The notes below the pieces were generated by a model. That model did no database searches, had not been told where the DNA came from, and saw nothing but the letters and a program-made list of their open reading frames with translations. Of a stretch of 21,434 nucleotides of DNA, positions 321 to 16,016 are shown one piece after another. Position numbers and translations under genes: made by a program. The stretch spans positions 1 through 21,434 of the forward strand of contig QOPK01000017.1 of NCBI GenBank assembly GCA_003331685.1, written 5' to 3'. This DNA is from Halieaceae bacterium (lineage in GTDB: Bacteria; Pseudomonadota; Gammaproteobacteria; Pseudomonadales; Halieaceae). The number at the start of each line of letters is the position of its first letter. Position 1 is the stretch's first letter.

Positions 321-1697
321 TTGGAGTCGGTAAAACCTCAGGATTCGGATATCTCTCGGATCCGCATGCAACCCCAGTCGGTTGAGGCAGAACGCTCGGT
401 CATCGGGGGTATTTTGTTGGTGCCCGAGAGCTGGGACGTGATTGCCGAGCTGGTTGATGCCGGCGACTTTTATCGGCCTGAGCACCGGGCGATTTTCCGT
501 CAGATCGCCACTCTGGTTGATCGTAACGAACCGATTGACGTCATCACCGTTGCAGATCGGCTGCTGGCAACGGGCGAACTGGATGCGGCTGGTGGCCATA
601 CCTACCTCGCAGATCTCGTCGAGCAGACGCCCACTGCCGCCAACGTCAGTGCTTACGCTAAGGCTGTGCGGGAGCGTGCGCTGCTTAGAAAGCTGATTGG
701 CGCGGCGCAGGATATTGCAACCGCGGGCTTCAACCCGGAGGGTCGCAGTGCGGAAGAGCTGGTTGATGAAGCCGAGCGGCTCATCATGACGGTCTCGGAG
801 AGCGGCCCGAAACTGGGTGGCCCTCAAGGCATGGCCCCACTTTTAACGGGTGCGCTGGAACGCATCGAAGAGCTCTACAACTCGGGTGGTGATATCACCG
901 GTCTCACCACCGGCTTCATTGATCTCGATAAGAAAACCTCGGGCCTGCAATCTTCGGACCTGGTGATTGTGGCGGGCCGGCCCTCTATGGGTAAGACGGC
1001 TTTTGCCATGAACCTGGTCGAGAACGCGTCTGCCCACACCGAAAAGCCGATTCTGGTTTTCTCGATGGAGATGCCGGCAGAGCAACTGGTGGTCAGGATG
1101 ATGTCCTCACTGGGCAAGATCGATCAGTCGCGGTTGCGTACGGGTAAGTTGCAGCAGGATGACTGGCCCAAGTTGTCGGCAGCGATGGCGAAGCTGAAAG
1201 AAACCACCATCTTCATTGATGACACACCGGCGTTGACGCCAACGGAAGTGAGAGCCAGGGCGCGCAGGCTCTCAAGGGAGCATGGCGATTTGGCCATGAT
1301 CATGGTGGATTACCTGCAGTTGATGCGGGTTGCGGGTGCGGCCGACGGCCGAACCGCAGAGATTTCGGAAATTTCCCGAAACCTGAAAGCGATCGCCAAG
1401 GAATTCCGCTGTCCGGTGGTGGCACTGTCACAGCTGAATCGAGCGTTGGAGCAGCGGCCTAACAAGCGTCCTGTGAATTCGGATCTCAGGGAATCGGGTG
1501 CGATCGAGCAGGACGCCGATGTGGTGATGTTCATTTATCGGGACGAGGTGTATCACGAGGACTCGCCGGACAAAGGTGTAGCCGAGATTATTATCGGCAA
1601 GCAGCGAAATGGCCCAATCGGGACCTGTCGTCTCGCGTTTCAGGGCGAATTCACGCGGTTTGAAAATCTCGCCCGGGATGACTACGCCGGCTACTGA
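321..1697 (+). CDS. dnaB: Replicative DNA helicase DnaB
   Basis: A 458-residue hexameric 5'-3' helicase that unwinds the fork and recruits DnaG primase (E. coli DnaB has 471 residues). The N-terminal helical domain begins around PQSVEAERSVIGG (residues 18-30). The RecA-like domain carries Walker A GRPSMGKT (219-226), Walker B MIMVDY (326-331) and the DLRESGAIEQDAD segment (388-400). No intein or insertion interrupts these motifs. The chosen start is TTG at 321, with AAGG 7 bases before it. It follows rplI directly. Downstream, where alr often sits in relatives, come an Hpt protein and, on the opposite strand, a DnaT-like/lambda-P-like pair that could act on this helicase. Confidence 0.97.
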   Translation: MESVKPQDSDISRIRMQPQSVEAERSVIGGILLVPESWDVIAELVDAGDFYRPEHRAIFRQIATLVDRNEPIDVITVADRLLATGELDAAGGHTYLADLVEQTPTAANVSAYAKAVRERALLRKLIGAAQDIATAGFNPEGRSAEELVDEAERLIMTVSESGPKLGGPQGMAPLLTGALERIEELYNSGGDITGLTTGFIDLDKKTSGLQSSDLVIVAGRPSMGKTAFAMNLVENASAHTEKPILVFSMEMPAEQLVVRMMSSLGKIDQSRLRTGKLQQDDWPKLSAAMAKLKETTIFIDDTPALTPTEVRARARRLSREHGDLAMIMVDYLQLMRVAGAADGRTAEISEISRNLKAIAKEFRCPVVALSQLNRALEQRPNKRPVNSDLRESGAIEQDADVVMFIYRDEVYHEDSPDKGVAEIIIGKQRNGPIGTCRLAFQGEFTRFENLARDDYAGY

Positions 1698-1743: not shown

Positions 1744-2097
1744 ATGAACCAGCTTCCCTCGCCCATCGATTTTTCTGCCCTGCTCGAAATGCTCGGCGGA
1801 GATAAGCAGATAGTGGCCTCACTACTCTCTAAATTTGTTGATGAATTGACCACGGACCTCGCAGCCAGTGAGCTTTCGATTACGCATCAAGATGCTGAGG
1901 CACTGAGGCAGATTGCACATCGCATCAAGGGCACAAGTGCCAATTTGCATGCACTCATGCTGTCGGCGGCGGCGCATGAATTGGAGCAGGCGTGCACCGA
2001 GGCCGACGCCTCGCTGATGAAGATCAAGCAGCGGGTGATGTCAGATCAGGCGCGGACAGTGCGAGAGGCAATCGAAAGCTGGGGCGCCGAAAACTGA
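1744..2097 (+). CDS. Stand-alone Hpt (histidine phosphotransfer) domain protein
   Basis: 117 residues forming one four-helix Hpt domain. The phospho-acceptor motif AHRIKGTSAN places the receiver histidine at residue 59, with the KG(T/S)(S/A)xN pattern typical of phosphorelay intermediates. The N-terminal DFSALLEMLGGDKQIVASLLSKFVDEL pattern (starting at residue 9) also fits Hpt proteins. No kinase or receiver domain is attached or encoded nearby, so its partners are unknown; it would relay phosphate between a hybrid sensor kinase and a response regulator. It lies 46 bases after dnaB on the same strand and ends 25 bases from the convergent lambda-P-like gene. The ATG at 1744 has only a weak upstream Shine-Dalgarno. 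Confidence 0.85.
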   Translation: MNQLPSPIDFSALLEMLGGDKQIVASLLSKFVDELTTDLAASELSITHQDAEALRQIAHRIKGTSANLHALMLSAAAHELEQACTEADASLMKIKQRVMSDQARTVREAIESWGAEN

Positions 2098-2122: not shown

Positions 2123-2800
2123 TCACAGACCGACTTCTCTTCTTAGCCGCGCGAGATGCGTGACCTGCTCCTCTGCGCTGGGTGACTCCTCTGTGGGTGC
2201 TGATAGTGTCACCCGCTCCGGACCCTGCAGCACTTCGCCACGAGCGGCGCGACTGACCCATCGATCGTAGTGTTCTCGATACACCGGCCAGGTTTTGGAT
2301 TCCGGCTCATTAGCCAGAAAAAACCAGTCGCTGTCGCGCCCGGCAAGGTACACCGCCGGGTGTTGCCATGCCGCGTTGGTTTTGGGCGAGGGCGCCAGAC
2401 AGGCCTGTCGATAGGCGTCGTAGGGCGACGGCAATCCCAGATCACTGAGGCAGTGTCGGCACGCCTCGATCATGCGATTTAGCGTGGGGAGATAGTCGCT
2501 GTGTTCAATGGCGTGTTGCGCTGCGCGCAGAATAACCGCTGTGGGGTAGGCCTCGAGCGCCTCCAGCCATAGGCGTTTGACCTGTTTCACCTGCTCGGCG
2601 TCTGACCAGGCCGCGTAATATTGGTTGTGGTAGTTCAACCGAAACAGCGCGAACACCTGATTGATCGCCTCAATCAGCTGCGAGTCGGACGGCTCCCTAG
2701 GGTCAGTTGGCCCAGCTGGTGTCGGTGAGGTCGTCGCTGAGACTTCGGTCTTTTGAGCGATGGCTGCCGCCAGCGCCGCTGCGTCCTGTTTCTCCGCCAT
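2123..2800 (-). CDS. dopE: Lambda P-like replicative helicase loader, DopE-like
   Basis: 225 residues resembling the phage lambda replication protein P family, which binds DnaB and delivers it to the origin. A low-complexity Ala/Thr/Pro N-terminus is followed by an IEAINQVFALFRLNY segment, then YLPTLNRMIEACRHCLSDLGLPSPYDAY, which parallels the lambda P stretch FLPSPGQFVAWCREEA...GLP. WQHPAVYLAG and WVSRAARGEVLQGP near the C-terminus parallel lambda P's YWLV...ARINRGEAIPEP. The start at 2800 is chosen because GGAG lies 6 bases upstream; an in-frame ATG at 2812 is possible. It overlaps the upstream DnaT-like gene by 98 bases in another frame, implying translational coupling. From established knowledge, a lambda-P-derived gene named dopE is a proposed helicase matchmaker in bacteria lacking DnaC and DciA. 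Assignment is by recall of sequence pattern and needs a profile search. Confidence 0.72.
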   Translation of the reverse strand: MAEKQDAAALAAAIAQKTEVSATTSPTPAGPTDPREPSDSQLIEAINQVFALFRLNYHNQYYAAWSDAEQVKQVKRLWLEALEAYPTAVILRAAQHAIEHSDYLPTLNRMIEACRHCLSDLGLPSPYDAYRQACLAPSPKTNAAWQHPAVYLAGRDSDWFFLANEPESKTWPVYREHYDRWVSRAARGEVLQGPERVTLSAPTEESPSAEEQVTHLARLRREVGL

Positions 2801-3782
2801 GCTGTTCTCCATACCCTGCGCTACGACACTGGCGTTTTACGTGCTGCAGAAATTTACTGTTCCAGGAGGTATGCACCTCATTACTATCCACCCAGTACAT
2901 CACAAATTCGGGGAGCAAGGCTTGTGCATCGGCTTGTTCGATCCCCGCCAACCGCAACGTCTCATAGACAGAGGTATCGGGTTCCCAGTTGCGAGGTATT
3001 CGTGTGGGCTCCGTGCTGTGATGCATCTGGCTGGTGTGCTTCAGCCAGCGCCGGCGAACATGTTCGACGAAGCGACTATTAACCTCTTTTGGTGGGCCGC
3101 CCCGCTCACTCCAGTACAGGATGAATTCTGCTCGCACCGATTCTGCAAAGCCGACGTCGATGTCCGCTTGAGCCAGTATCTCGATCGCGTCTTGGCTGGG
3201 TGTCCAGTCGCGGTCAAACGGCGCAGGGGTCCTGATCTCGAAGGCGTGTGCCTTGGGTTGCTTCGCTTGCTGCCTTTGTGAGTCTCGCCAACGGGTAAGA
3301 ATGTGCTGCCTAAACTGGGTCTCAGCCTCGCTATGGTTGGAGAGTATGAAGCTGGCCTGGGCATTGTCGATAAACGTTCTAGGAATACCGTGATTGAGCA
3401 CTAGCAACTCAATTAACGCATCGCTTGCCTGCCAGTCGGTGCGTCCATAGGAAGGGGTAGCCGCACTGGAGTGAGTTAACCCATGAGCATTCCCCGCGAT
3501 GTCGGCTGCTGCACTGAGCAGGACAACATTCGGGTCCAGGCTTGGTTGCTGATGAATAATGCCCAGTGCCACCAGCTTCGCGATGAGCGTCGCAATATGA
3601 TCCAGAGACCAAAACGACAGCGTTTTTTGCACCGTTGTGAGGGACAGAGGAGCCCAATCATCAGCGCCATTTAGGTGACTGCCCAAAGCCTGCAATAAAA
3701 CGGCTTCTTCAAGTCCGATTGTCTCGGCCAGTTCGGGCGAGAAGGTCAGTTGTCGATCGGGAATGAGTGAAGCAGGCGGCAT
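2703..3782 (-). CDS. dopC: Protein with winged-helix-like N-terminus and three tandem DnaT-like domains, DopC-like replication factor
   Basis: 359 residues from the ATG at 3782 (MPPASLIPDRQ). Longer in-frame starts reach 3893 but would run into radA. Residues 5-90 look like a small helical or winged-helix module. Three repeats follow, each W-x-(P/A)-S/D...EL(L)...G(I)...F...Y/S...(N)S(R/K)F..H(I/V)..(R/Q): about 117-168, 193-248 and 266-320. The third, with WNSKFLQHVKRQ, is closest to the single-stranded-DNA-binding domain of primosomal protein DnaT. The C-terminal 40 residues are Gly/Ser rich and are encoded in the region that also encodes the start of dopE. It is divergent from radA by 89 bases. 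In published work dopC is the partner of dopE and was derived from phage lambda O; whether this DnaT-repeat protein is that dopC is inference from its pairing with the lambda-P-like gene. Confidence 0.68.
   Translation of the reverse strand: MPPASLIPDRQLTFSPELAETIGLEEAVLLQALGSHLNGADDWAPLSLTTVQKTLSFWSLDHIATLIAKLVALGIIHQQPSLDPNVVLLSAAADIAGNAHGLTHSSAATPSYGRTDWQASDALIELLVLNHGIPRTFIDNAQASFILSNHSEAETQFRQHILTRWRDSQRQQAKQPKAHAFEIRTPAPFDRDWTPSQDAIEILAQADIDVGFAESVRAEFILYWSERGGPPKEVNSRFVEHVRRRWLKHTSQMHHSTEPTRIPRNWEPDTSVYETLRLAGIEQADAQALLPEFVMYWVDSNEVHTSWNSKFLQHVKRQCRSAGYGEQHGGETGRSGAGGSHRSKDRSLSDDLTDTSWAN
2807..2810 (-). promoter_or_regulatory. Ribosome binding site of dopE-like gene
   Basis: GGAG on the minus strand, 6 bases before the ATG at 2800 and inside the coding region of the upstream DnaT-like gene. 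It favours the 2800 start over the ATG at 2812, which lies too close to its upstream AGGG. Confidence 0.5.
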
Positions 3783-3871: not shown

Positions 3872-5248
3872 GTGGCGAAGGCAAAAACCGCATTTGTCTG
3901 CAATGACTGTGGAGCCGATTTCCCTAAGTGGCAGGGCCAGTGCGGTGAGTGCCAGGCTTGGAACACCCTCTCGGAAATTAGGCTCAGCGCGCCTGCGGCG
4001 AAGGTGGCTAATGCGCGGGCAGCGGGGCGGTCCGGTTACGCCGGTACGGTGGCTGCAGTGCAGCGTCTTGCAGATGTGGCGGTGGTCGATTTGCCTCGAC
4101 TGGCTTCCGGGTTTGACGAATTGGATCGCGTCCTCGGCGGCGGATTTGTGCCGGGCTCAAGCATCTTGATTGGCGGGCACCCTGGGGCAGGCAAGAGTAC
4201 GCTGCTGCTGCAAGCCCTGTGTCAGCTGGCGGCATTGCATCCCGCGCTATATGTCACAGGTGAAGAGTCTCCCGAGCAAATCGCACTGCGCGCCAATCGT
4301 CTTGGTCTGCCGACGGATAAGCTGCAGCTGATGGCAGAAACCGATGTCGATGCGATCCTGGCTTCGGCTGAGTCCATAAAACCCAAAATTCTCGTTGTCG
4401 ACTCTATTCAGGTGGTGCACAGCGAGACGCTGACGTCAGCTCCTGGGAGCGTGTCGCAGGTTCGGGATTGTGCTGCCCAACTGACCCGGTATGCCAAGCA
4501 GACGGGCACGATATTGATACTGGTGGGTCACGTGACGAAAGACGGCAGCCTCGCCGGGCCGAAGGTGCTCGAGCACATGATCGACTGCTCGATACTTCTC
4601 GAGGGTGACCACGATTCCCGTTACCGCACTTTGCGAGGGCAGAAGAATCGTTTCGGCGCTGTGAACGAGCTGGGCATTTTCGCGATGACCGATGCCGGCA
4701 TGCGCGAGGTCACCAATCCTTCGGCGATTTTTCTGGATCGCTCGGAGCACACTGCGCCGGGTACAACGGTTGTTGTCGTATGGGAGGGTACCCGCCCGTT
4801 ACTGGTGGAAATTCAGGCTCTTGTCGATGACAGCTCACTGGGCAATCCCCGGCGCGTGACAGTGGGTTTTGAGCAGAACAGGCTGGCGATGTTGCTTGCG
4901 GTGCTGCATCGACACGGTGACATTCAGGTGAGCGATCAGGACGTGTTTGCCAACGTGGTGGGCGGTGTGCGGGTTATGGAGACCTCGGCTGATCTGGCGC
5001 TGTTGCTGGCAGTGGTGTCGAGCCTGCGGAACCGGCCCCTGCCGAGGGACTGGGTGGTCTTTGGCGAGGTGGGTTTGTCTGGGGAAATTCGACCCGTGGC
5101 CAGTGGCCAGGAAAGGCTCGCCGAGGCTGCAAAACACGGCTTCAAGCTCGCGATTGTGCCCAAAGGGAACGCGCCGAAAAAGGCAATTAAGGGCCTTAAA
5201 GTGATCCCCGTTGTGCGTCTCTCCGAGGCGTTGGAAGCCAGCCAATGA
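3872..5248 (+). CDS. radA: DNA repair protein RadA (Sms), branch-migration helicase
   Basis: 458 residues, the usual RadA length. The N-terminal zinc finger is C10-x2-C13...C24-x2-C27. Walker A is GGHPGAGKST (101-110; most RadA proteins have GGNPGAGKST), the RadA-specific KNRFG motif is at 258-262, and the C-terminal third is a Lon-protease-like domain (FGEVGLSGEIRPV). RadA promotes branch migration of RecA recombination intermediates in the cytoplasm. The start is GTG at 3872 with GGAGAG 6 bases upstream. It is divergent from the DnaT-like gene and convergent with ettA. Confidence 0.97.
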   Translation: MAKAKTAFVCNDCGADFPKWQGQCGECQAWNTLSEIRLSAPAAKVANARAAGRSGYAGTVAAVQRLADVAVVDLPRLASGFDELDRVLGGGFVPGSSILIGGHPGAGKSTLLLQALCQLAALHPALYVTGEESPEQIALRANRLGLPTDKLQLMAETDVDAILASAESIKPKILVVDSIQVVHSETLTSAPGSVSQVRDCAAQLTRYAKQTGTILILVGHVTKDGSLAGPKVLEHMIDCSILLEGDHDSRYRTLRGQKNRFGAVNELGIFAMTDAGMREVTNPSAIFLDRSEHTAPGTTVVVVWEGTRPLLVEIQALVDDSSLGNPRRVTVGFEQNRLAMLLAVLHRHGDIQVSDQDVFANVVGGVRVMETSADLALLLAVVSSLRNRPLPRDWVVFGEVGLSGEIRPVASGQERLAEAAKHGFKLAIVPKGNAPKKAIKGLKVIPVVRLSEALEASQ

Positions 5249-5338
5249 GTGATCCCTCAAAGAAATCACCCAGATCGCTTCCCCGGTGACTGAGGTCTAC
5301 GCCCACAATCTAATGCCCTGTTCGCTCGGTCTGGTGTG

Positions 5339-5355
5339 ACACTGTCGGTGTTTTT
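5339..5355 (+). terminator. Possible weak intrinsic terminator after radA
   Basis: ACACT (5339-5343) can pair with GGTGT (5347-5351, one T-G wobble) around a 3-nt loop, running into a T tract at 5351-5355. The stem is short, so efficiency is doubtful. It lies 90 bases after the radA stop and before the convergent ettA stop. Confidence 0.3.
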
Positions 5356-5375
5356 GTGGCCGTGCCTGCTGATCA

Positions 5376-7040
5376 TTACTTCAGCTTACGGTGCTTCACT
5401 CGGCTGGGTACCGCGGCTTCCGCGCCAACCCGCTGTCGCCGATCATCCTCATACTCCGAGTAGTTGCCCTCGTGGAAAACCACGTTGCCATCGTCCTCAT
5501 AAGCGAGGATGTGGGTGGCGATTCGGTCGAGGAACCAACGGTCGTGCGAAATCACCAATGCGGAGCCAGGGAACGCCAGCAGAGCTTCCTCCAGTGCCCG
5601 CAGCGTTTCGACGTCGAGGTCGTTGGTGGGCTCATCCAGCAAAAGCACATTGGCTCCTTGCTTAAGCAATTTGGCGAGGTGAAGTCGGTTGCGCTCTCCC
5701 CCAGAGAGATCTTTAACAAATTTTTGCTGGTCAGAGCCTTTGAAGTTGAAGCGACCCACATACGATCGCGAAGGCACTTCATAATTGCCGATGCGGATGA
5801 TGTCTAAGCCGTCGGATACCTCTTCCCAAACGGTTTTACTGCCGTCGAGATCATCCCGGGATTGATCTACATAACCAAGCTCCACTGTCTCACCCACCGT
5901 GACCTCACCGCCATCGGGGGTCTCTAGACCCATCAAGATGCGGAATAGCGTCGATTTACCCATCCCGTTGGCACCAATAATGCCCACGATGCTACCTTTG
6001 GGCACCGTGAAGCTGACTTCTTCGAACAACAACCGATCCCCAAAGGCTTTTCGCAGGCCGTTGACCTCGATCACCTTGTCTCCGAGTCTCGCACCTGGCG
6101 GAATGTAGATTTCGTTGGTCTCGTTACGGGTTTGAAACTCTTGCGAATTGAGTTCCTCAAAGCGCTGCAGTCGCGCCTTATTCTTGGCCTGACGACCTTT
6201 TGGGTTGGAGCGCACCCATTCAAGTTCGGCCTTAATCGCTTTTTGGTGTGAAGCTTCTTGACGTTGCTCCTGCTCTATACGTGCCTCTTTAGCTTCTAGC
6301 CAAGTGGAGTAATTGCCCTCGTAGGGAATGCCCCGACCACGGTCCAACTCGAGAATCCATCCGGCGGCGTTATCGAGGAAGTAACGATCGTGAGTGATTG
6401 CCACGACAGTCCCAGAGAAATCTTCCAAAAAGTGCTCCAGCCATGCCACAGACTCGGCATCAAGGTGGTTAGTCGGCTCATCGAGTAGCAGCATGTCCGG
6501 CTCTGAGAGCAGTAACCTTGCTAGCGCGACACGGCGGAGCTCACCTCCGGACAGTGTGTCGACGTTGGCGTCCCAGGGCGGCAAACGTAAAGCGTTAGCA
6601 GCAATCTCGAGTCGCGTGTCGAGGTTGTGTGCATCCTTGGCCTGAATAATATCTTCGAATCTGGCCTGCTCCTTGGCCAGCGCATCAAAGTCTGCGTCGG
6701 GCTCGGCATAGTCTGCATACACTTTCTCTAGCCCAGCCAGCGCATCGATGGCTTCCTGAACACCTTCCTCTACGTTGCCACGGACATCTTTTTCTGAATT
6801 GAGCTGGGGCTCTTGAGGTAAATAGCCGATCTTGATATCAGGTTGGGGCCGCGCTTCACCCAGTATCTCAGTATCGATGCCCGCCATGATCTTTAGCAGG
6901 GTGGATTTACCCGAGCCATTCAGACCAAGCACGCCAATCTTGGCGCCTGGAAAAAACGACAGTGAGATATCTTTGAGAATTTCCTTTTTGGGTGGGACGA
7001 TCTTTCCCACCCGATTCATGGTGTAAACGTATTGCGCCAC
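5376..7040 (-). CDS. ettA: Energy-dependent translational throttle protein EttA (ABC-F ATPase)
   Basis: 554 residues, nearly the same as E. coli EttA (555). Two ABC domains: Walker A GLNGSGKS (39-46), signature LSGGE (163-167) and Walker B LLLDEP (184-189) in the first; GANGMGKS (356-363), LSGGERNR and LLLDEPTNDLD in the second. The charged linker around 240-320 (EAKEARIEQEQRQ, KGRQAKNKARL) is the P-site tRNA interaction motif. There are no membrane segments. EttA binds the ribosomal E site and gates the first elongation step according to ATP/ADP ratio. The start is GTG at 7040; on the minus strand TTGGAG lies about 7 bases upstream. It is convergent with radA. Confidence 0.96.
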   Translation of the reverse strand: MAQYVYTMNRVGKIVPPKKEILKDISLSFFPGAKIGVLGLNGSGKSTLLKIMAGIDTEILGEARPQPDIKIGYLPQEPQLNSEKDVRGNVEEGVQEAIDALAGLEKVYADYAEPDADFDALAKEQARFEDIIQAKDAHNLDTRLEIAANALRLPPWDANVDTLSGGELRRVALARLLLSEPDMLLLDEPTNHLDAESVAWLEHFLEDFSGTVVAITHDRYFLDNAAGWILELDRGRGIPYEGNYSTWLEAKEARIEQEQRQEASHQKAIKAELEWVRSNPKGRQAKNKARLQRFEELNSQEFQTRNETNEIYIPPGARLGDKVIEVNGLRKAFGDRLLFEEVSFTVPKGSIVGIIGANGMGKSTLFRILMGLETPDGGEVTVGETVELGYVDQSRDDLDGSKTVWEEVSDGLDIIRIGNYEVPSRSYVGRFNFKGSDQQKFVKDLSGGERNRLHLAKLLKQGANVLLLDEPTNDLDVETLRALEEALLAFPGSALVISHDRWFLDRIATHILAYEDDGNVVFHEGNYSEYEDDRRQRVGAEAAVPSRVKHRKLK

Positions 7041-7175
7041 GGTATGACTCCAACGATCTTGCTGAAACGGGATGCCCTTGTGGGATTGCCCGCAGATGTA
7101 CGGATTATCGACATCGAGCCGGCCCGAGTCGAGATGCTATTGTTGGAGATCAATGGTTCGCCTTGTGGAGAGGAC

Positions 7176-7340
7176 TTATTCCTCGCGTATCTCGACGATA
7201 GCGGACTTGATGACGTCCTCGAGTTTCTGCTCGGTCTCTTTCCACACGACTAGGCGCTCGCTACCTCGATTTGCGGATACATCCGCGTCGCGGAACTCAA
7301 TCGTTTTGATTTCGCCGGTCTTCCAATGTTTGAAAGTCAT
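7176..7340 (-). CDS. Hypothetical 54-residue protein upstream of ettA
   Basis: A short ORF from ATG (7340-7338) to TAA (7178-7176). The product begins MTFKHWKTGEIKTIEFRDAD, continues VSANRGSERLVVW and ends in an acidic amphipathic helix (EQKLEDVIKSAIVEIREE), which looks like a folded domain. I do not recognise the family. Roughly two thirds of third codon positions are G or C, like the neighbours. It lies in the same direction as rimK and ettA, in a 480-base gap that otherwise lacks a gene. No good Shine-Dalgarno precedes the ATG, but a 5-codon ORF (7354-7337) ends in an ATGA overlap with it. The opposite strand is also open at 7044-7253, codon-in-register with this ORF, so strand choice is not certain. 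Confidence 0.5.
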   Translation of the reverse strand: MTFKHWKTGEIKTIEFRDADVSANRGSERLVVWKETEQKLEDVIKSAIVEIREE

Positions 7341-7354
7341 GAATTTTTTGTCAT
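7337..7354 (-). other. Five-codon leader ORF overlapping the 54-residue gene
   Basis: The sequence ATG ACA AAA AAT TCA TGA has its TGA overlapping the ATG of the 54-codon gene (ATGA). A GAGAGG lies 11 bases upstream at 7366-7371. If translated, it would supply ribosomes to the downstream ATG by termination-reinitiation. This is suggestive only. Confidence 0.25.
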
Positions 7355-7522
7355 GCGTTCAAGTGCCTCTCAAATGAAATTCTCGTTCAGCGCAGTTCCT
7401 TGAGATCTGCGCATCACTTTGACATATCAGAGGGTGAAAATCTGACTCACGATGTTAGCGTGTTGGAGAAATAGTGAGGCACTGATCCTGCTATGGATTG
7501 GGTGATCTCAACCGGCACTTTG
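7341..7522. other. Intergenic region between rimK and the 54-residue gene
   Basis: These 182 bases contain no convincing gene. An imperfectly placed inverted repeat, GCGCAG (7390-7395) and CTGCGC (7407-7412) with an 11-nt loop, could form a hairpin on either strand, without an adjoining T tract. A TTGACA at about 7420 on + has no matching -10 box at normal spacing. Confidence 0.4.
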
Positions 7523-8428
7523 TTATCCCTTCACACGGCGCTGCGATTTGCCGGTGTGAACGTGAGACTCGATGAACTCAATTATTTTGCCGGCGACATT
7601 TACTCCAGTGGCTTCCTCAATGCCCCTTAAACCGGGTGAGGAATTGACCTCCATGACCAAAGGTCCCCGGTCGGAACGCAATAAATCAACACCCGCAACG
7701 CTCAGGCCCATAGTCTGCGCGGCTTTGATAGCGGTGCGTCTTTCCAATTTGGTGAGTTTGGTGAGTTTGGCGCTACCACCACGATGCAGGTTGGAGCGAA
7801 ACTCACCGGCTGCTGATGTGCGCTCCATCGCCGCCACCACCTTGGTGCCAATGACGAAACATCTCACGTCAGAGCCGCCTGCTTCCTTAATAAATTCCTG
7901 AACGAGGAAATCAGCGCTAAGCTCCTTAAAGGCGTCGATAACAGACTCAGCGGCCTTCGCGGTTTCTGCAAGCACCACGCCGCGTCCCTGAGTGCCCTCG
8001 AGCAGCTTTACTACCACTGGTGCGCCGCCCACTAATTGAATGAGCTGTCGCGTATTTGATATGTCGTGGGCGAATCCCGTCGCGGGCATCCCGAGCCCTT
8101 TTTTGGACAGCAGTTGCAGCGCCCTTAGCTTGGATCTGGAGCGGCCAAGCGGGATAGAGCCCACTAAGGAGTAGGTGTCCATCATTTCAAACTGTCGAAT
8201 CACTGCCGTACCGTAGTTAGTGATGGAGGCGCCGATGCGGGGGATGATAGCGTCCAGATGCTCTAATTCTATTCCGCGATACCACACAGAAGGTTTCGCG
8301 GAGCTTATGTCCATATAGCATTTCAGGGTATCGATTACTCTGCAGTCGTGACCGGCCGTGAGGGCCTCCTCCAATAATCTGGAGGTGCTGTAGAGCTTGG
8401 GGTTACGCGAGAGTATGCCTATTTTCAT
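7523..8428 (-). CDS. rimK: Ribosomal protein S6 glutamate ligase RimK
   Basis: 301 residues (E. coli RimK has 300). An ATP-grasp ligase that adds glutamates to the C-terminus of ribosomal protein S6. Visible conserved stretches are [52 protein letters not shown] (the ATP-binding lysine and glycine-rich loop), [11 protein letters not shown] and the metal-binding end [17 protein letters not shown]. The ATG overlaps the stop of the upstream rimB by four bases (8425-8428), so the two are translationally coupled and co-transcribed with ugd. It lacks an internal duplication despite a 9-base tandem repeat at 7751-7768. Confidence 0.96.
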
Positions 8429-8880
8429 CGGGTTTCCGGCGGAACGTGTCGGCTGCCACCGAGCAGAAATGAATGTCTCGGCAACACCATCGCATCCCTT
8501 GGCAGTGCAGTGCGGCCCAGAAGCATTGGGAATCGCATTGCACTGCGGTCTGTCAGCGTAATGTCGATAAGAAATTGGTGTTCGCCGATCACGGTTGTGC
8601 TGCGAATGACCGGCCTGCGTTCGGTGTTTCCGCCAGAATCGGTGACCTCGCGATACTCGATCACCATTGCTTCACAGCGGTCGCCGATTTCATCCGAGCC
8701 GGCAACACTCCGCAAGTAAAACCTCACCCACTCGGCGCCATCCTTTTCGAAATAATCGATATCGCCGGCATGAAGGGCACTCGTTCTGGCGCCTGTATCC
8801 ACCTTGACCTTAATCCAAGTCAGACCAAGATCTGGCAGGGCCGCCCACTCGCGCCAGCCGACTTGCAGCGTCGGGCTCAA
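8425..8880 (-). CDS. rimB: RimB-type retropepsin-like protease (annotated in many genomes as ATP-dependent zinc protease)
   Basis: 151 residues of the family often labelled ATP-dependent zinc protease or DUF785. The N-terminal [13 protein letters not shown] carries a D28-T29-G30 active-site triad like that of aspartic retropepsins, and [13 protein letters not shown] near the end is the family's second conserved motif. In Pseudomonas the homologue RimB is encoded with rimK and counteracts S6 glutamylation; a role on RimK-modified S6 is inferred here from the four-base overlaps with rimK downstream and ugd upstream. No signal peptide is seen, so it is likely cytoplasmic. No rimA-like gene is present. 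Confidence 0.8.
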
Positions 8881-10220
8881 GTTTGCGCTACCACCGAGCG
8901 GCCGCGTCCAATACCGAAGTACTCGATGTCGAGTGTTTCCATGTCCTCTGGGTTGTAAAGGTTGCGGCCATCGATGATCACCGGTGTGATGAGCCTCTTT
9001 TTGATGTCCTCAAAATCCGGCGCTCGGAATAGCTTCCACTCCGTGCAGATGACCAGACAGTCTGCATTGTCGAGTGCTTCTTCTTTGGTCGCGCAGTAGT
9101 GCATGTCATCCCGCGGCCCGTAGATGGCTTCGCAGGCTTCCATGGCCTGTGGATCAAATGCTTTGACCTTGCCGCCCGCTCTCCAGACAGCCTCAATCAG
9201 GACGCGGCTGGGTGCCTCTCGCATGTCGTCAGTGTTCGGCTTGAAAGACAGTCCCCACACCGCGACGATGCGGTTCGTCAGGTCTGCTCCAAATCGCGCT
9301 ATGACCTGCTCGGCCAACTTCTGTTTCTGCCGCTCGTTGGTGTTGTGTACTGCAGGCAAGATTTGAGCACGGGTGCCGCTCTGCTTGGCGAGGTAATCGA
9401 GCGCTTGGACATCCTTGGGAAAGCAAGAGCCGCCATAACCCGCGCCCGGGTAGATAAATTGATAGCCAATTCGGGGGTCAGAGCCGATGCCTTGGCGCAC
9501 CAGCTCGACGTCAGCGCCCACCGCCTCTGCGATATTGGCGATTTCATTAATGAAACTGATTTTCGTGGCCAGCATGGCGTTCGCAGCGTACTTGGTGAGT
9601 TCGGCACTGCGCGGATCCATGAACATCATTTTGTCGTGGTTGCGGTTGAACGACTCGTACATGCGACGGAACTCGGCCACAGTGGCTTCTGAGCGGGCCC
9701 CGATAATGATTCGGTCGGGTTTTAGCGCATCGGCGACCGCAGAGCCCTCTTTAAGAAACTCTGGGTTGGAACACACCTCAAAAGGTATATCTGCCCCGCG
9801 GGCCGCTAATCCTGACGCAATATAGCCGGCCACCTTGTCTGCCGTGCCTACGGGCACAGTGGATTTGTTTACCACGACTTTGCGGGTGCTCATGTGCGCT
9901 GAGATGCCCTCTGCAACCGACATTACATACTGTAAATCCGCGCTGCCGTCGGCTGCTGAGGGCGTGCCAACGCAAATAAACAGATAATCACTGGCCTCAA
10001 CGGCTTCTGCAGTGTCATCGGTAAAACGAAGTGTGTTTTGCGCGATGCCTGCTTGGACGAGGTCGTTCAGGCCGGGTTCGTAAAAGGGTAGGTCACCGTC
10101 TTGGATGCGCGCGATGCGAGTGGGGTCAATATCCATGCAGGTGACCTGGTGCCCGACCTCGGAGAACACTGCCGCCTGCACCAGTCCCACGTAGCCGCTG
10201 CCGAAGATACTGATTCGCAT
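8877..10220 (-). CDS. ugd: UDP-glucose 6-dehydrogenase
   Basis: 447 residues. It oxidises UDP-glucose to UDP-glucuronate with two NAD+, supplying precursors for exopolysaccharide or modified LPS. The N-terminal Rossmann motif is GSGYVG (7-12), followed by ICVGTP (82-87), STVPVGT (120-126), NPEFLKEG (152-159) and the catalytic cysteine C266 in GYGGSCFPKD. The C-terminal NAD-domain half contains VWGLSFKPNTDDMREAPS. A GDP-mannose dehydrogenase is less likely from the overall motif set, but substrate cannot be proven. A strong AAGGAG precedes the ATG. It is first in an operon with rimB and rimK and divergent from glyA. Confidence 0.92.
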   Translation of the reverse strand: MRISIFGSGYVGLVQAAVFSEVGHQVTCMDIDPTRIARIQDGDLPFYEPGLNDLVQAGIAQNTLRFTDDTAEAVEASDYLFICVGTPSAADGSADLQYVMSVAEGISAHMSTRKVVVNKSTVPVGTADKVAGYIASGLAARGADIPFEVCSNPEFLKEGSAVADALKPDRIIIGARSEATVAEFRRMYESFNRNHDKMMFMDPRSAELTKYAANAMLATKISFINEIANIAEAVGADVELVRQGIGSDPRIGYQFIYPGAGYGGSCFPKDVQALDYLAKQSGTRAQILPAVHNTNERQKQKLAEQVIARFGADLTNRIVAVWGLSFKPNTDDMREAPSRVLIEAVWRAGGKVKAFDPQAMEACEAIYGPRDDMHYCATKEEALDNADCLVICTEWKLFRAPDFEDIKKRLITPVIIDGRNLYNPEDMETLDIEYFGIGRGRSVVAQT

Positions 10221-10227
10221 AGTTTTT

Positions 10228-10233
10228 CTCCTT
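10228..10233 (-). promoter_or_regulatory. Strong ribosome binding site of ugd
   Basis: A perfect AAGGAG on the minus strand, 7 bases before the ATG at 10220. It is the strongest Shine-Dalgarno seen in the window. Confidence 0.8.
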
Positions 10234-10383
10234 AATCCGGTCTGAACATCGTAAACGTAAACTCATGTCACTTTGTAGTGTCTGAATGATAAAACCCTGA
10301 CGCCGCGGCCGGGTTCCGCTACCATTCGCCCTTCATTGAAAGCCACGGGGCGGTTGTCCCGTTCCAAGCCGCAGGAAGCCCTT

Positions 10384-11682
10384 ATGAATCAAGCTGCCAC
10401 CCATTTGTCGCAGTACCTCGACCGCGATACCCAGACCATCGAAGCCTTTGATGCCGAGCTGTGGTCAGCCATGAGCGCTGAAACCGTTCGCCAGGAGGAG
10501 CACATTGAACTCATTGCCTCGGAGAACTACTGCAGTCCCAGGGTGCTGGAGGCTCAGGGCTCGGTGCTGACAAACAAATACGCCGAGGGTTACCCCGGGA
10601 AGCGCTATTACGGCGGCTGTGAATTCGTTGATCGGGCGGAAACCCTGGCGATTGAGCGTGCCAAGGCTTTGTTTGGTGCCGACTTTGCTAACGTGCAGCC
10701 GCATTCTGGCTCAAGTGCGAACATTGCTGTCTTTCAGGCGCTCCTCAAGCCCGGCGACACCGTGCTGGGGATGAGCCTCGCCGATGGGGGGCATCTGACC
10801 CACGGTGCATCGGTCAATTTTTCGGGCAAGATTTATCAGGCGGTGCAGTACGGGATTGATCATGACACCGGTTTGATCGACTACGAAGCGGTGCGCGAGC
10901 TGGCTATCGTGCACAAACCCAAGCTGATCATTGGTGGTTTTTCGGCCTACAGCCGGATTCTCGACTGGTCCAAATTCCGCGAGATTGCCGACGAGGTTGG
11001 TGCCTTTTTGCTGGTTGATATGGCCCACGTGGCGGGCTTGGTGGCGGCGGGCGTGTATCCCAACCCGATTGCCCACGCCGATGTGGTGACGACGACGACC
11101 CACAAAACACTTAGGGGTCCAAGATCAGGGCTCATCCTCGCCCGGGCCAACGAGGCGCTTGAGAAGCAATTTAACTCGGCGATTTTCCCCGGCGCTCAAG
11201 GCGGGCCACTCATGCATGTGATTGCTGCCAAGGCGGTCGCCTTCAAAGAGGCAATGTCACCAGATTTTGTCAACTATCAGAAGCAGGTGATCCGCAACGC
11301 GCAGGCCATGGCCGCGACCTTTGTCGCGCGGGGGCACAAGATTGTATCGGGCGGTACTGATAACCACCTGATGCTGTTGGACTTGATTGGCAAGGAGTAC
11401 ACCGGAAAGGACGCGGATGCGGCACTGGGTAAAGCGTATATCACGGTGAATAAAAATGCCGTGCCGAATGACCCGCGTTCGCCGTTCGTCACTTCTGGTC
11501 TGAGATTGGGCACGCCCGCTATCACGACCCGCGGGTTTGGCGTGGAAGAAACTGAACTATTGACTGGTTGGATCTGCGACGTATTGGCCTCCTTGGAAGC
11601 GGGGACCTCAGACCAAGTGATACCTGCAGTGCGCGAGCAGGTGAAGGCGCTGTGCGCCAAGATGCCGGTTTACGCGCACTGA
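10384..11682 (+). CDS. glyA: Serine hydroxymethyltransferase
   Basis: 432 residues from the ATG at 10384, where AGGA lies about 8 bases upstream; an in-frame start at 10336 would add 16 unconserved residues. It interconverts serine and glycine, loading tetrahydrofolate with a one-carbon unit. Seen: [12 protein letters not shown] (38-49), [15 protein letters not shown] (64-78), the PLP-binding [16 protein letters not shown] with Schiff-base Lys241, and a [14 protein letters not shown] segment. It is about 15 residues longer than E. coli GlyA, with most of the extra length at the N-terminus. It heads the long + strand cluster. In the 163 bases between it and ugd I see a short CACT-N4-AGTG inverted repeat but no recognised riboswitch or operator. 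Confidence 0.97.
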
Positions 11683-11688
11683 GAGGGT

Positions 11689-11707
11689 GGGCGTCTTTGT
11701 GACGCCC
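11689..11707 (+). promoter_or_regulatory. Perfect stem-loop between glyA and nrdR
   Basis: GGGCGTC (11689-11695) pairs perfectly with GACGCCC (11701-11707) around a 5-nt loop. It starts 7 bases after the glyA stop and ends 8 bases before the nrdR ATG. There is no T tract, so it is not a standard terminator. It occupies the position where the nrdR Shine-Dalgarno should be. Confidence 0.5.
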
Positions 11708-11715
11708 CTGATGCC

Positions 11716-12189
11716 ATGCACTGCCCTTTCTGCAGCACCGACGAAACCAAGGTCATTGACTCACGTCTAGTTGCCGACGGCGCTCAGGTGCGCAGACGGC
11801 GGGAATGCCTGAGTTGCACCGAGCGTTTCACGACCTACGAAGCGGCGGAATTGGTACTGCCGCGAATCATCAAGCAGGACGGTAGCCGCGAGCCCTTTGA
11901 TGAGGAGAAGTTGCGGTCAGGCTTGCTGCGTGCGCTGGAAAAACGCCCCGTTTCAGTCGAGAGCATTGAAGCCGAGCTCCAACAGATCAAGCATCGCCTG
12001 CGTGCCACCGGGGAGCGGGAGATCAAGTCGCTGCAAGTGGGCGAGCGTGTGATGGACTCGCTGAAGGCACTGGATCATGTTGCCTACGTGCGCTTCGCGT
12101 CAGTTTATCGGAGCTTTCAGGATCTCGCTGAATTCAGAGATGCGATTGAATCTCTGGAGGCCGAGCCGACCGAAGGCGATTCACCGTGA
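11716..12189 (+). CDS. nrdR: Transcriptional repressor NrdR
   Basis: 157 residues, standard for NrdR. The N-terminal zinc ribbon is C3-x2-C6...C31-x2-C34, with DSR and RRRREC between, followed by an ATP-cone ([31 protein letters not shown]). It represses ribonucleotide reductase operons when dATP is bound. No Shine-Dalgarno is visible before the ATG; a perfect hairpin takes that position, so translation may depend on coupling from glyA. Its stop overlaps the GTG of ribD (GTGA), giving a coupled pair, as in many gammaproteobacteria. Confidence 0.97.
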
Positions 12190-13286
12190 GCGACGCTCGG
12201 GATCGCCGCTGGATGCAGCGCGCGATCGAACTGGGCCGTCGCGCACGTTACTGGTCAGCACCCAACCCCCCTGTCGGCTGCGTCTTGGTGCGTGATGATC
12301 AGGAGGTCGGCGCCGGTTTTACGCAACCCGCTGGGCAAGCGCATGCCGAAGTCATGGCACTCAGCGACGCCGGTGACGCAAACGGTGTGACCGCTTACGT
12401 TACTTTAGAACCCTGCAGTCATCATGGTCAGACAGGCCCCTGCGCCAGTGCATTGATCGATGCCGGTGTCAGTCGGGTGGTGGTGGCGTTGGAGGATCCG
12501 AACCCTGAGGTTGCTGGCCGTGGGATCGCTGCGCTGCGCTGCGCAGGTATCGAGGTCGATCTTGGAGAGGGCGCAGATCAGGTCGAGGCAGATCTTGCCG
12601 GCTTTCTTCTGCGCATGCGTCGTGGGTATGGGCGCATCACGTTGAAGATCGCAGCATCGTTAGATGGGCGGACCGCAATGTCTTCGGGGGAAAGCCAGTG
12701 GATTACAGGTGAGGAAGCGCGAGCGGATGTGCAGCGGCTTCGCGCAGAAGCTGACCTGATGGTGACCGGTGTGGGTACCGTGCTGGAGGATGATTGCCGA
12801 CTGACCTTGCGAGCAGATGAGTTGCCACTCGATGGCGAGGATAAAGAGCGAGCCTTGGCGCACCCCCCGTCTCGTATGGTGCTCGACTCGAAAGGCCGGA
12901 CGCCGGCCGGCGCGCGGATTTTGGCAGGCGGCGAAACTACCGTGATTACCACTGAGAACATTACGCTCGGTGAGCCAAGTCAGGTCGTCGTGCTTGCTAT
13001 GGATGCCGAGGGCCGCGTCGATATCGGTGCCTGGGTGCAGCACCTCGAAAAGCATGCCTTCAATGAGATCATGGTTGAGGCAGGTCCCACGCTATCGGGT
13101 GCGCTGCTGAGAGGCGGTTGGGTGGACCGACTCATTATCTACCAGGCCCCCAAGTTGCTAGGTGATGACGCTCGCGCCATGGCGGCGATGAACTTTTCAG
13201 CGCTGATTGAGGCGCCGGAATTTGAGATCAACGAGGTGACCCGCATCGGCGCAGATCTGCGTATCATGGCCGCCCCGAAAGGGTAG
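12186..13286 (+). CDS. ribD: Bifunctional pyrimidine deaminase/reductase RibD
   Basis: 366 residues. It performs deamination and side-chain reduction of the GTP cyclohydrolase II product in riboflavin synthesis. The N-terminal cytidine-deaminase-like domain has the zinc site HAE (H53, E55) and [11 protein letters not shown] (C77, C86). The C-terminal NADPH reductase domain begins at about [14 protein letters not shown] and includes [11 protein letters not shown], a GVGTVLEDD segment and the C-terminal [12 protein letters not shown]. The start is GTG at 12186, overlapping nrdR by four bases. All motifs look intact. A 47-base gap with an AGGAG precedes ribE; I see no FMN riboswitch. Confidence 0.97.
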
Positions 13287-13333
13287 CTCAGCGCGCAAGA
13301 GCTTCTCGCTAAACAACTGATTCAGGAGCCACT

Positions 13334-13945
13334 GTGTTTACAGGGATTATTCAAGCTATCGGGTGTATCGCCGCGATTGAACCCGGCGAGAAAGACATCC
13401 GGCTGCGTATCGAGACGGGCAAGTTGCCGCTGACGGGCGTATCGCTGGGGGACAGCATTGCCACCAGCGGTGTTTGCCTCACCGTCACAGAGCTGCCGGG
13501 TGATGGCTTTTGGGCTGATGTGTCGCCCGAGACTCTCTCGCTGACGACACTAGGAGGCAAAGGCATTGGCGACGCGGTCAATCTGGAAACGTCGCTAACG
13601 CTCCAAACGGCACTCGGTGGACATCTGGTCAGCGGGCACGTCGATGGGGTGGGGCGTGTTGAGCGCGTTGTCGAGGATGCGCGTTTTTGGCGGGTGACGA
13701 TCGCGGCGCCAGAAAATCTGGCTCGCTATATCGCCATGAAGGGCAGCATTTGCGTCGATGGCACGAGCCTTACGGTGAATCAGGTCGACGGCGCCAGCTT
13801 CGAACTCACGATCATTCCCCAAACCTGGGAGGAGACGGTGTTCAGTAAATATCAAGCGGGTAGTCCCGTTAACCTAGAGGTTGATGTTATTGCACGCTAT
13901 CTCGAGAGATTGATGCAATACGATCAGTCTCCGTCGGAGTCATAA
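13334..13945 (+). CDS. ribE: Riboflavin synthase alpha subunit
   Basis: 203 residues with two lumazine-binding domain repeats. The first starts MFTGIIQAIG with SLGDSIATSGVCLTV; the second has GHLVSGHVDGVGRV followed by KGSICVDGTSLTVN. It dismutates two 6,7-dimethyl-8-ribityllumazine molecules to riboflavin, last in the pathway and usually associated with RibH. The start is GTG at 13334, with AGGAG 6 bases upstream. It is called ribE in this naming, ribC in E. coli. The next gene begins 4 bases after its stop. Confidence 0.96.
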   Translation: MFTGIIQAIGCIAAIEPGEKDIRLRIETGKLPLTGVSLGDSIATSGVCLTVTELPGDGFWADVSPETLSLTTLGGKGIGDAVNLETSLTLQTALGGHLVSGHVDGVGRVERVVEDARFWRVTIAAPENLARYIAMKGSICVDGTSLTVNQVDGASFELTIIPQTWEETVFSKYQAGSPVNLEVDVIARYLERLMQYDQSPSES

Positions 13946-13949
13946 CGCT

Positions 13950-15074
13950 GTGACCGAGTATGCCGACATCGATAAGTTGCTCAGTGCGCTGCGACATGGC
14001 CACAGCTGTCTGCTGCTGAATGAGAACAGTGCGGGAGGTATGACGGGCTTTGTCGTGGTGGCTGCAGAGCACTGCGAGGCTCAGCACATTGCCTTCATGG
14101 CGCGCCAGGCGCGCGGGTTGGTCTGTCTAGCGATGACCCCTCAGCGATGCGAGGAGCTACAGCTCCCGCTGATGGTAGAAGGAGACGATTCGCTCTCGCC
14201 TTTCACGTTGTCGATTGAAGCTGCCACCGGTATCGACACGGGCATCTCGGCAGCGGATCGAGCGCACACTGTTCGGGTGGCTGTCGATACGGCGAGCCAA
14301 GCCTCTGATCTGGTGCAACCAGGTCATATTTTCCCTATCGCTGCGGCCGCGGGGGGCGTCCTCACTCGCACCGCACCAGCCGAGGCGGCGATGGATCTGG
14401 CGACCCTTGCCGGGCTTCTACCATCGGCAGTGTTCACAGAAGTATTGGATAACGATGGTGCTGTGGCGGATGCCGACTATTTGCTGGGCTTTGCTGATCA
14501 GCATCAGCTGGTAATGGGGCTGGTATCTGATCTGGTGACTTATAGACTCGCTAACCAGAAAACCATTCGCGCTGTGCGTGAGGGCACACTGCAAACACGG
14601 CATGGCGTTTTCAGCGCTACCGCTTATCAGGACACTACCCAGGGCCGACTGCATGTGGCGCTGACAAAGGGCGTGATCGATGCGGCCAAACCTACCCTTG
14701 TGAGGGTGCACGTCACGTCAATGTTCAGGGATCTGGTGGGCACGACTCTCGATGGCCATGCTTCTTGGTCCTTCGATGCTAGCCTTAAAGCGATTGGAGA
14801 ATCAGAGGGCGGCGTATTGGTATTGCTCAGCAAGCCCGAGGCCACTGATGATCTGCTTCATGACATTGATCGTCTGCTCGGTGAGCCCGAAAGTGACAAA
14901 GCCGGCAGTCCGGATGCCTACAATCAGATAGGGATGGGGGCACAAATTCTGCGTGACTTAGGTGTAGGGCAGATTCGCTTATTGGGAGCGCCACTCAAGT
15001 ACAATGCGTTGGCGGGTTTCGGTCTTGAAGTCGTCGATTTTGTGGCGCCGCCAGAAGCCGCTGATTCGCACTGA
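13950..15074 (+). CDS. RibBX-like fusion: DHBP synthase-like domain plus GTP cyclohydrolase II-like domain, both with lost active-site residues
   Basis: 374 residues from a GTG with GGAG 10 bases upstream. Residues 1-200 align along their length with RibB ([36 protein letters not shown]), and 205-366 with the GTP cyclohydrolase II fold. RibBX proteins are a known proteobacterial variant in which the C-terminal half lacks cyclohydrolase activity; accordingly the zinc cysteines are gone (SECLTGD replaced by TSMFRDL at 256-262, RCDCG by HASWS at 270-274). Unusually, the RibB metal and substrate loop DDEDRENEGD is replaced by [10 protein letters not shown] (24-33) without a gap, RHGSG becomes RQARG, and GHTEA becomes APAEA; H126 and E164 remain. 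Riboflavin synthesis would then need separate ribB and ribA genes elsewhere. It is kept intact between ribE and ribH, arguing for a selected, perhaps structural or regulatory, role. Confidence 0.85.
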
Positions 15075-15087
15075 GGAACTCGGACCG

Positions 15088-15570
15088 ATGTCGGGCAAAG
15101 GTATTGATAATTCAGCGTCGCAGGTACCGGGCAACGATGGCCGGTACGTCATTGTGATCACGCGCTGGAATGAGGAGATCGTGACCGGGCTGCTCAAGGG
15201 CGCCACGCAGGCACTCGCTGAGGTGGGTATTGAAGGTGAGCAGGTCGAGGTGGTGGGTGTGCCGGGCGCCTTCGAGATCCCTCTGGCCTGTCAGGCCGCC
15301 GCCCAAAGATCCGATTGCGACGCCGTGGTGGCGCTGGGAGCTGTTATACGTGGTGGCACACCTCACTTTGAATATGTTGCTGGCGAATGCACCCGGGGCA
15401 TCGGTGAGGTAGCGCTGCGCACCGGCAAGCCGGTGGCCTTTGGCGTACTGACGGTCGATACGCTGGAGCAGGCGCTCGAGCGCTCTGGAGACGACGAAGA
15501 AAATAAAGGCGCCGAAGCAGCCATGAGCGCAGTCGAGATGGTGAATCTCCTGCGAACGTTGCGCGACTGA
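15088..15570 (+). CDS. ribH: 6,7-dimethyl-8-ribityllumazine synthase
   Basis: 160 residues (E. coli RibH has 156). It condenses DHBP with the RibD-derived pyrimidine to lumazine, as a pentamer or icosahedral shell. Seen: [39 protein letters not shown] (with the catalytic histidine of the HFEYVA motif), PVAFGVLT and [13 protein letters not shown]. The ATG at 15088 has GAGGAA about 9 bases upstream. In-frame starts back to 15004 would overlap ribBX and add unconserved residues. The stop overlaps the nusB ATG by one base (TGATG). Confidence 0.97.
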
Positions 15571-16016
15571 TGGGCCAGCCAAATGCTCTGGCTGCGCAGC
15601 GTCGCAAAGCGCGCCACTTTGGCCTTCAGGCTCTGTACCAGTGGACCTTATCGGGAGCCAGTGCGACAGATATCGAAGCTGAGTTCCGGGTCGATAACGA
15701 CTTTCAGCACACCGATGGCGACTACTTCAGCGCCGTGTTGAAAGGTGTTGTCGGGGATGTCGAAGCTCTTGAGGCGCTATTTACGCCTGCCCTCGATCGC
15801 AAGCTCGACGAGCTCGATCCGATCGAGAGAAATCTATTGCGCCTGGGCACCTTTGAACTGAGAGACCGCATCGATGTGCCATACAAAGTTGTCATCAATG
15901 AAGCGGTCGCCCTGGCAAAAAAGTTTGGCGCCACAGATTCCCACCGATACATCAATGGCGTGCTAGACAAGATTGCCAGAGATCTGCGAGCCGTGGAGCA
16001 CGCGCAAAACAGCTGA
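15570..16016 (+). CDS. nusB: Transcription antitermination protein NusB
   Basis: 148 residues, all-helical. NusB with NusE (S10) binds boxA RNA for rRNA antitermination. Seen: RRKARHFGLQALYQWTLSG at the N-terminus, ELDPIERNLLRLGTFEL, and VPYKVVINEAVALAKKFGATDSHRYINGVLDKIA, all typical. It overlaps ribH and thiL by one base at each end, so translation is coupled across all three. Confidence 0.97.
   Translation: MGQPNALAAQRRKARHFGLQALYQWTLSGASATDIEAEFRVDNDFQHTDGDYFSAVLKGVVGDVEALEALFTPALDRKLDELDPIERNLLRLGTFELRDRIDVPYKVVINEAVALAKKFGATDSHRYINGVLDKIARDLRAVEHAQNS

Follow-up and report, generated by a model that had tools for sequence, protein, structure and literature searches.

The DNA analysed here (the window) is a stretch of 21,434 nucleotides from a Halieaceae bacterium (GenBank assembly GCA_003331685.1, contig QOPK01000017.1, positions 1 to 21,434 of the forward strand). 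Beside dnaB, the gene of the replicative helicase, the window carries two overlapping minus-strand genes which resemble the dopC/dopE pair of helicase-loading genes and are called dopC and dopE below. An earlier note, made from the sequence of this DNA, had described a two-gene minus-strand unit at 2123-3782 and had read it as a probable domesticated helicase-loading module. Both reading frames were confirmed at the predicted coordinates (2123-2812, 229 aa; 2703-3782, 359 aa), and exclusion, linkage and selection in relatives give good support to the reading as a domesticated module. We consider it highly probable that a phage replication module has here become the cell's own, resident system for helicase loading. 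The features of the pair are as follows.

2123 to 2812, minus strand: dopE-like gene, lambda P-family helicase loader, 229 aa (225 aa from the second ATG)
2703 to 3782, minus strand: dopC-like gene, 359 aa, with a predicted winged helix, three DnaT domains and a conserved C-terminal tail
3498 to 3740, minus strand: predicted N-terminal winged-helix domain of DopC, about residues 15-95 (AlphaFold model and structure list)
3243 to 3461, minus strand: DnaT repeat 1, about residues 108-180, degenerate, with the Tyr-Trp pair replaced by Ser-Asn
3021 to 3236, minus strand: DnaT repeat 2, about residues 183-254, with an intact aromatic trio (Phe-Tyr-Trp in all 86 DopC aligned)
2808 to 3017, minus strand: DnaT repeat 3, about residues 256-325, also with an intact aromatic trio (of the 86 DopC aligned, 75 have Phe-Tyr-Trp and 11 have Phe-Phe-Trp)
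2706 to 2744, minus strand: C-terminal tail of DopC (...SLSDDLTDTSWAN) with a strict D.SWA motif
2703 to 2812, minus strand: out-of-frame overlap of the dopC 3' end and the dopE 5' end, 110 nt (98 nt from the second ATG)

The two proteins and their overlapping genes

DopE matched the lambda P family in a Pfam search (PF06992, E=1.5e-8, 35.1 bits with a curated cut-off of 26) and PHROG 109, the 'P-like helicase loader' family, over residues 25-227 (E=1.3e-20). Profile-profile alignment (hhalign) with the P protein of phage PAJU2 gave a probability of 99 (E=3.9e-18), and together these matches bear out the lambda P-like motifs of the earlier note. Structure comparison showed that the predicted fold of DopE agrees with lambda P as the DnaB-bound loader, and that the C-terminal half of DopE also resembles lambda P in the DnaB complex. 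Pfam found no AAA+ domain in DopE, the DciA model PF05258 matched neither DopE nor DopC, and searches of PDB sequences with DopC, DopE and their alignments gave nothing useful. By profile, profile-profile alignment and predicted fold, the assignment of DopE as lambda P-like is solid, and by analogy DopE would bind and open DnaB.

DopC matched the DnaT domain PF17948 in three stretches (whole-protein E=5.8e-44), as the earlier note had proposed, and the repeats searched singly gave E-values of 3.6e-6, 3.4e-18 and 1.8e-21. Chance could not account for scores of this size, nor for those of DopE with lambda P. Since hhalign with E. coli DnaT reached a probability of only 49, over part of the C-terminal domain, the DnaT assignment rests on Pfam and structure. 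Among the E. coli DnaT residues that contact single-stranded DNA (ssDNA), F124, Y127 and W128 are kept in repeats 2 and 3, and the Tyr and the Trp are gone from repeat 1; the position of K143 holds Arg in repeat 2 and Lys in repeat 3, and K133 and R146 are not conserved. An E. coli DnaT Tyr-Trp double mutant is nearly without ssDNA binding (PMC4132743). The alignment used for the aromatic residues covered 86 of 91 DopC, with L106, L107 and three proteins of 300 aa or fewer excluded. When intact F..[YF]W motifs were counted in 81 loci (the window and the 80 named loci, which are the best 80 of 177 and hence weighted to Halieaceae), two were found in 45 DopC including that of the window, three in 35 and one in 1. 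It appears that the aromatic motif of repeat 1 was lost in the window and in 44 of the 80 named loci. The lack of the ssDNA-stacking Tyr-Trp pair in repeat 1 and the 110-nt overlap are both absent from the earlier note. The number of DnaT domains is one or three depending on the clade, and two such domains occur in other phage proteins (L112, L205 and L208).

For the N-terminus of the DopC AlphaFold model, winged-helix proteins made up the bulk of the structure list. Pfam had no match for this domain, Foldseek comparison of the DopC model with known structures gave no match at E<=0.001, and tblastn of DopC against phages gave no match; the winged helix has no named relative because the fold is too common. 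Both genes had been taken to be lambda-derived, which holds for DopE by its lambda P match. For DopC, an origin from lambda O was not seen: PF04492 was not found at E<=10, and hhalign against lambda O-type proteins (one O protein, a pair, and lambda O) gave probabilities of 1.5, 0.6 and 0.1. Unlike in DopC, PF04492 was detected in the O proteins of lambda, PAJU2 and a prophage of G031, one of the relatives.

The 110 nt shared by dopC and dopE encode both the tail of DopC and the N-terminus of DopE. An ATG or GTG was present at -115 to -80 from the dopC end in all 80 named loci and in 33 of 34 loci of another set. Fourfold-site differences inside the overlap amounted to 28/297 in dopC and 31/335 in dopE, versus 987/2274 and 704/1430 outside it, as counted in 20 pairs which have sequences in common and are not independent, and of which L151/L153 is poorly aligned in dopE with few codons. 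Such a low number of fourfold differences inside the overlap in both frames is a mark of dual coding. Relatives with a single DnaT domain have overlaps of 104, 137 and 80 nt (longest frame), and a prophage O/P pair has one of 19 nt. The overlap is not always close to 100 nt: two genomes of family f24 (L221 and L222) have only 32 nt and retain the pair and the tail. The f24 genomes were checked because their dopE match contained a stop codon; the stops precede the start, and the stop in another genome, G007, is the natural end, so all three dopE genes are intact.

The tail of DopC recurs in a wider group of proteins. A strict D.SWA lies within 14 residues of the C-terminus in 85 of 91 DopC; the six failures are variants (L134, L136, L184 and L192), one motif further inward (L106) and one protein with none (L107). 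The chance of a strict D.SWA in the last 25 residues is on the order of 1 in 10,000, a rough estimate from residue frequencies. The motif is also near the C-terminus of the PAJU2/PAE2 O protein and the SC_8 adaptor, and in the DnaT-domain proteins of five of six viral loci (L112 and L205-L208, not L209). Looser forms stand at the end of the protein in lambda O (LTNTDW), in the P22-type O proteins of BTP1 and HK97 (NDTGW) and in VW-6S (DDRGWG). The motif is not in E. coli DnaT, nor in the proteins that precede DnaC-like ATPases in phages psageB2 and Shamal, in which the Pfam DnaT domain was also not found. No P gene was noticed in the open reading frames read from viral contigs L205 and L208, both of which have the tail; this counts against P as the sole partner of the tail.

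Contig L205, like L208, encodes a two-domain DnaT protein, and it resembles Mu-like phages in its integrase-core protein and its AAA+ ATPase. Phage Mu relies on the restart path of its host. Phages like L205 and L208 may carry their own DnaT into hosts that have none.

Mutual exclusion of DopE and DciA

DopC was found in 34 of 38 relatives, and DopE likewise in 34; the pair is missing from G002 and G020 (72% and 75% complete), G027 and G029. The earlier note had placed such pairs in bacteria without DciA and DnaC, and the distribution in relatives agrees with this for DciA: the model PF05258 had no match in the 25 genomes of the nearest genus and none in the 34 DopE-bearing relatives, and matched only G027 and G029 among the 38, both without DopE. 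For DnaC the agreement is partial. The DnaC-type AAA+ model PF01695 stayed at or below 37 bits in 34 of the 38 relatives, but exceeded 100 bits in four, with no score between 37 and 133; E. coli DnaC scores 58 bits on this model, and from their scores we read the four matches as IstB-like or partial. We take the Halieaceae to belong to the order Cellvibrionales. This order is described as being without dciA and dnaC (PMC5109545).

A search of 244 genomes from the order found the DopE profile in 152, DciA in 76 and the DnaT domain in 153. Only one genome, G078, had DopE (a weak P match, 4.7e-18) together with DciA, and 17 had neither by these models, such as G057 (family f33) and G065 (family f40); these 17 are candidates for a diverged DciA or another loader. 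DnaT and DopE occurred together in 151 genomes, with G078 having DopE without DnaT, and G224 and G227 having DnaT without DopE; all three of these carry DciA. By family, in lists compiled by eye, DopE is in 26 and DciA in 15, and no family has both except via G078. Fisher's test, which ignores relatedness, gave p=7e-45. The results demonstrated that DopE and DciA exclude each other nearly completely. This mutual exclusion indicates that DopE fills the place of DciA.

Gene order and selection at the dnaB locus

The genes that flank the pair in the window are as follows.

321 to 1697, plus strand: dnaB, replicative helicase and presumed client (PF03796, E=4.9e-109)
1744 to 2097, plus strand: Hpt-domain gene in the interval between dnaB and dopE (PF01627, E=7.7e-13)
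3872 to 5248, plus strand: radA, conserved flank beyond dopC, syntenic in relatives (PF06745, E=3.2e-18)

Pfam gives a RecA/KaiC-type ATPase domain for the gene at 3872-5248, which we take to be radA. The dnaB stop (1697) and the dopE stop (2123) are 426 bp apart, matching the earlier estimate of about 0.4 kb, with the Hpt-domain gene in between. A longer ATG frame of dopC runs from 3893, yet the alignment with relatives begins at 3782. That no other phage genes lie nearby also held: the ten genes from radA onward (3872-15074) have cellular Pfam domains, such as those of RimK, SHMT, NrdR and riboflavin synthesis, and no phage-type Pfam domain was found among them. The named loci closest to the window are Luminiphilus and Halieaceae, and the nearest genome compared, G001, has 22% of sampled words in common with the window.

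The order radA - dopC - dopE - (Hpt) - dnaB was found in 75 of the 80 named loci, and in the others the available DNA is without dnaB (2) or without radA (3). Both flanks are also present in four further families (L098, L100, L101 and L103), and among the remaining loci from other families L099 and L104 stop at a contig edge, L105 has radA only and L102 has neither flank. One genome of family f2 and one of family f8 have the pair next to an mrp-like gene (with metG on the opposite side in f2), and in one genome of f6 it is near pnp; each of these pairs has one DnaT domain, and no phage domain was found among 7 neighbouring proteins. The linkage to dnaB to which the earlier note drew attention extends to many families but not to all (f2, f6, f8, L102 and L105), and the pair is not confined to prophage contexts in relatives, as the 75 loci between radA and dnaB show. 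Since the site of the pair varies by clade, moves or separate domestications are allowed.

Outside the overlap, dN/dS in 15 pairs was 0.08-0.21 for dopC (9 of 15 computable) and 0.03-0.09 for dopE (13 of 15), with L122 dropped for ambiguous bases (N) outside the overlap and with saturated dS in several pairs. These codon comparisons show that dopC and dopE are under purifying selection. Pairwise distances of DopC and DopE track those of DnaB and RadA (r 0.84-0.94) at about twice the pace in 66 of the 81 loci, the remainder being truncated or incomplete.

The stand-alone Hpt protein (1744-2097) is present in many relatives and missing from some, and its gene is not thought to be part of the helicase-loading module. 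At a separate locus of G031, which also has the resident pair, there is a second lambda O/P-like pair (L109, contig C14, 8347-10022). In L086 (G011, 13681-15882) the DnaB match is split into residues 8-392 and 392-458 about 0.85 kb apart, as would be expected of a candidate intein or insertion. In L087 (G003, 7313-8688) and L078 (G012, 6996-8370) the DnaB and RadA matches come in overlapping pieces, perhaps from assembly errors.

Proposed helicase loading and its relation to known systems

Very probably, the pair loads the neighbouring DnaB onto DNA and replaces the usual bacterial loader. We propose that DopE would bind the DnaB ring, keep the ring open and carry DnaB to the DNA, while the DnaT domains of DopC would grip ssDNA like the C-terminal filament of E. 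coli DnaT. The winged helix may contact duplex DNA or a partner, and the conserved tail would dock on the helicase-loader complex, so that DopC could mark ssDNA and pass it to the DnaB ring opened by DopE. In E. coli, ssDNA of the lagging strand is taken over by a filament of DnaT C-terminal domains, and a proposed role of the N-terminal domain is recruitment of DnaB/DnaC (PMC13377028). For the pair, what we infer is that DopE binds DnaB and opens its ring, that DopC binds ssDNA and docks by its tail, and that the module is used at oriC, at restarted forks or at both. With the PriB model below its cut-off in all 38 relatives (sub-threshold matches in 4), a PriB-free role in restart is possible too.

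More tentatively, and with rather less confidence than even chances would warrant, we suggest that DopC is a pre-assembled DnaT filament in one chain, which recruits the helicase via a DxSWA peptide common to phage initiators (DopC, the DnaT-domain phage proteins and Pseudomonas phage O, and loosely lambda O and P22-type O). DxSWA would then serve generally as the motif that docks on DnaB, or on DnaB with its loader. Since, through the overlap, the 5' end of the loader gene also encodes this tail, adaptor and loader would be tied physically and genetically, in a PriB-free path for initiation and restart.

The module might serve replication restart only, like DnaT/DnaC, with loading at oriC left to something else. 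DopC is made of DnaT domains, E. coli DnaT is a restart protein (PMC13377028), and with PriB above cut-off in 0 of 38 relatives DopC could stand in for PriB and DnaT together. However, DopE excludes DciA, an initiation factor (PMC5109545), and hence takes its place, and neither of the two models used (PF05258 and PF01695) revealed another loader. We regard a role in restart only as improbable. It is still less likely that DopE mainly restrains or parks DnaB like the SPP1 loader/inhibitor G39P, as the likeness to lambda P in the DnaB complex includes the C-terminal half of DopE, and the title of the G39P entry itself reads loader/inhibitor. Least likely of all is an unused prophage remnant that lies beside dnaB by chance: DopE and the DnaT-domain proteins do have phage homologues and G031 does hold a second, separate P-like copy next to a lambda O-like gene, but the conserved site, the presence of the pair in 34 of 38 relatives, the purifying selection, the distances that track housekeeping genes and the cellular neighbours in the window all argue against it.

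The resident helicase-loading system proposed here has a precedent. Brezellec et al. reportedly described dopC/dopE in 2017 (Genome Biol Evol, evx111) as domesticated lambda genes, with DopC said to derive from lambda O. The DopC of the window is presumably the same protein. The likeness lies in a lambda P homologue outside prophages, fixed in a lineage without dciA (as judged from relatives), in the two-gene unit and in the Cellvibrionales; the difference from the reported definition is that the DopC of the window has three DnaT domains and no lambda O domain, with resemblance in the tail only. DopE has been named as a loader family (PMC13326638). The dopC/dopE system is thus already in print, and the window adds one member; in databases, relatives already carry the labels 'DnaT-like ssDNA-binding domain-containing protein' and 'replication protein P'. 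In the literature searched, which did not include the 2017 dopC/dopE paper, we found no report of the DnaT architecture, the dual-coded overlap or the shared tail, and no experimental paper on the system was found. To our knowledge, the overlap and the shared tail of dopC/dopE have not been reported. Helicase loading is essential, and on more than one occasion bacteria have taken phage genes in place of their loader; in the present case the exchange is visible across an order, in which DopE and DciA rarely meet and phages with a similar module can be named. The tail and the overlap offer cheap and concrete handles on how a phage-type loader joins its DNA-binding partner.

In lambda O/P, as in dopC/dopE, the adaptor gene precedes a P-type loader gene, and the end of lambda O (...LTNTDWIYGVDL) is loosely like that of DopC (...LTDTSWAN). 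However, lambda O has PF04492 and DopC has none, and the lambda O/P overlap is 4 nt, as opposed to about 100 in dopC/dopE. The E. coli dnaT-dnaC genes also place a DnaT-domain adaptor beside a helicase loader, but DnaC is an AAA+ protein and E. coli DnaT has one DnaT domain and no tail motif. DciA has the same presumed role of bringing DnaB to DNA, but its model PF05258 is unmatched in DopC and DopE, and DciA meets DopE in only 1 of 244 genomes. For DnaC, lambda P and DciA alike, the site of contact on DnaB is placed at its LH-DH module (PMC9912922).

In phages SC_8_H2H8_2017, QHHSV-1 and VW-6S of Pseudomonas and Halomonas, a DnaT-domain protein directly precedes P, and in two of the three (SC_8_H2H8_2017 and QHHSV-1) it has an HTH/winged-helix domain and the D.SWA motif; these are phage genes, not resident ones, with one DnaT domain where DopC has three. 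Such winged-helix/DnaT and P modules appear closer to the source of the pair than lambda O does. In QHHSV-1 the DnaT frame runs out of frame into P, as in dopC/dopE, with the motif 80 nt inside P, but it stays open well past D.SWA, so that the motif is not C-terminal. This HTH/DnaT frame overlapping P (L215, 687-2078) is unannotated in the Halomonas phage QHHSV-1 record, which has minus-strand open reading frames instead.
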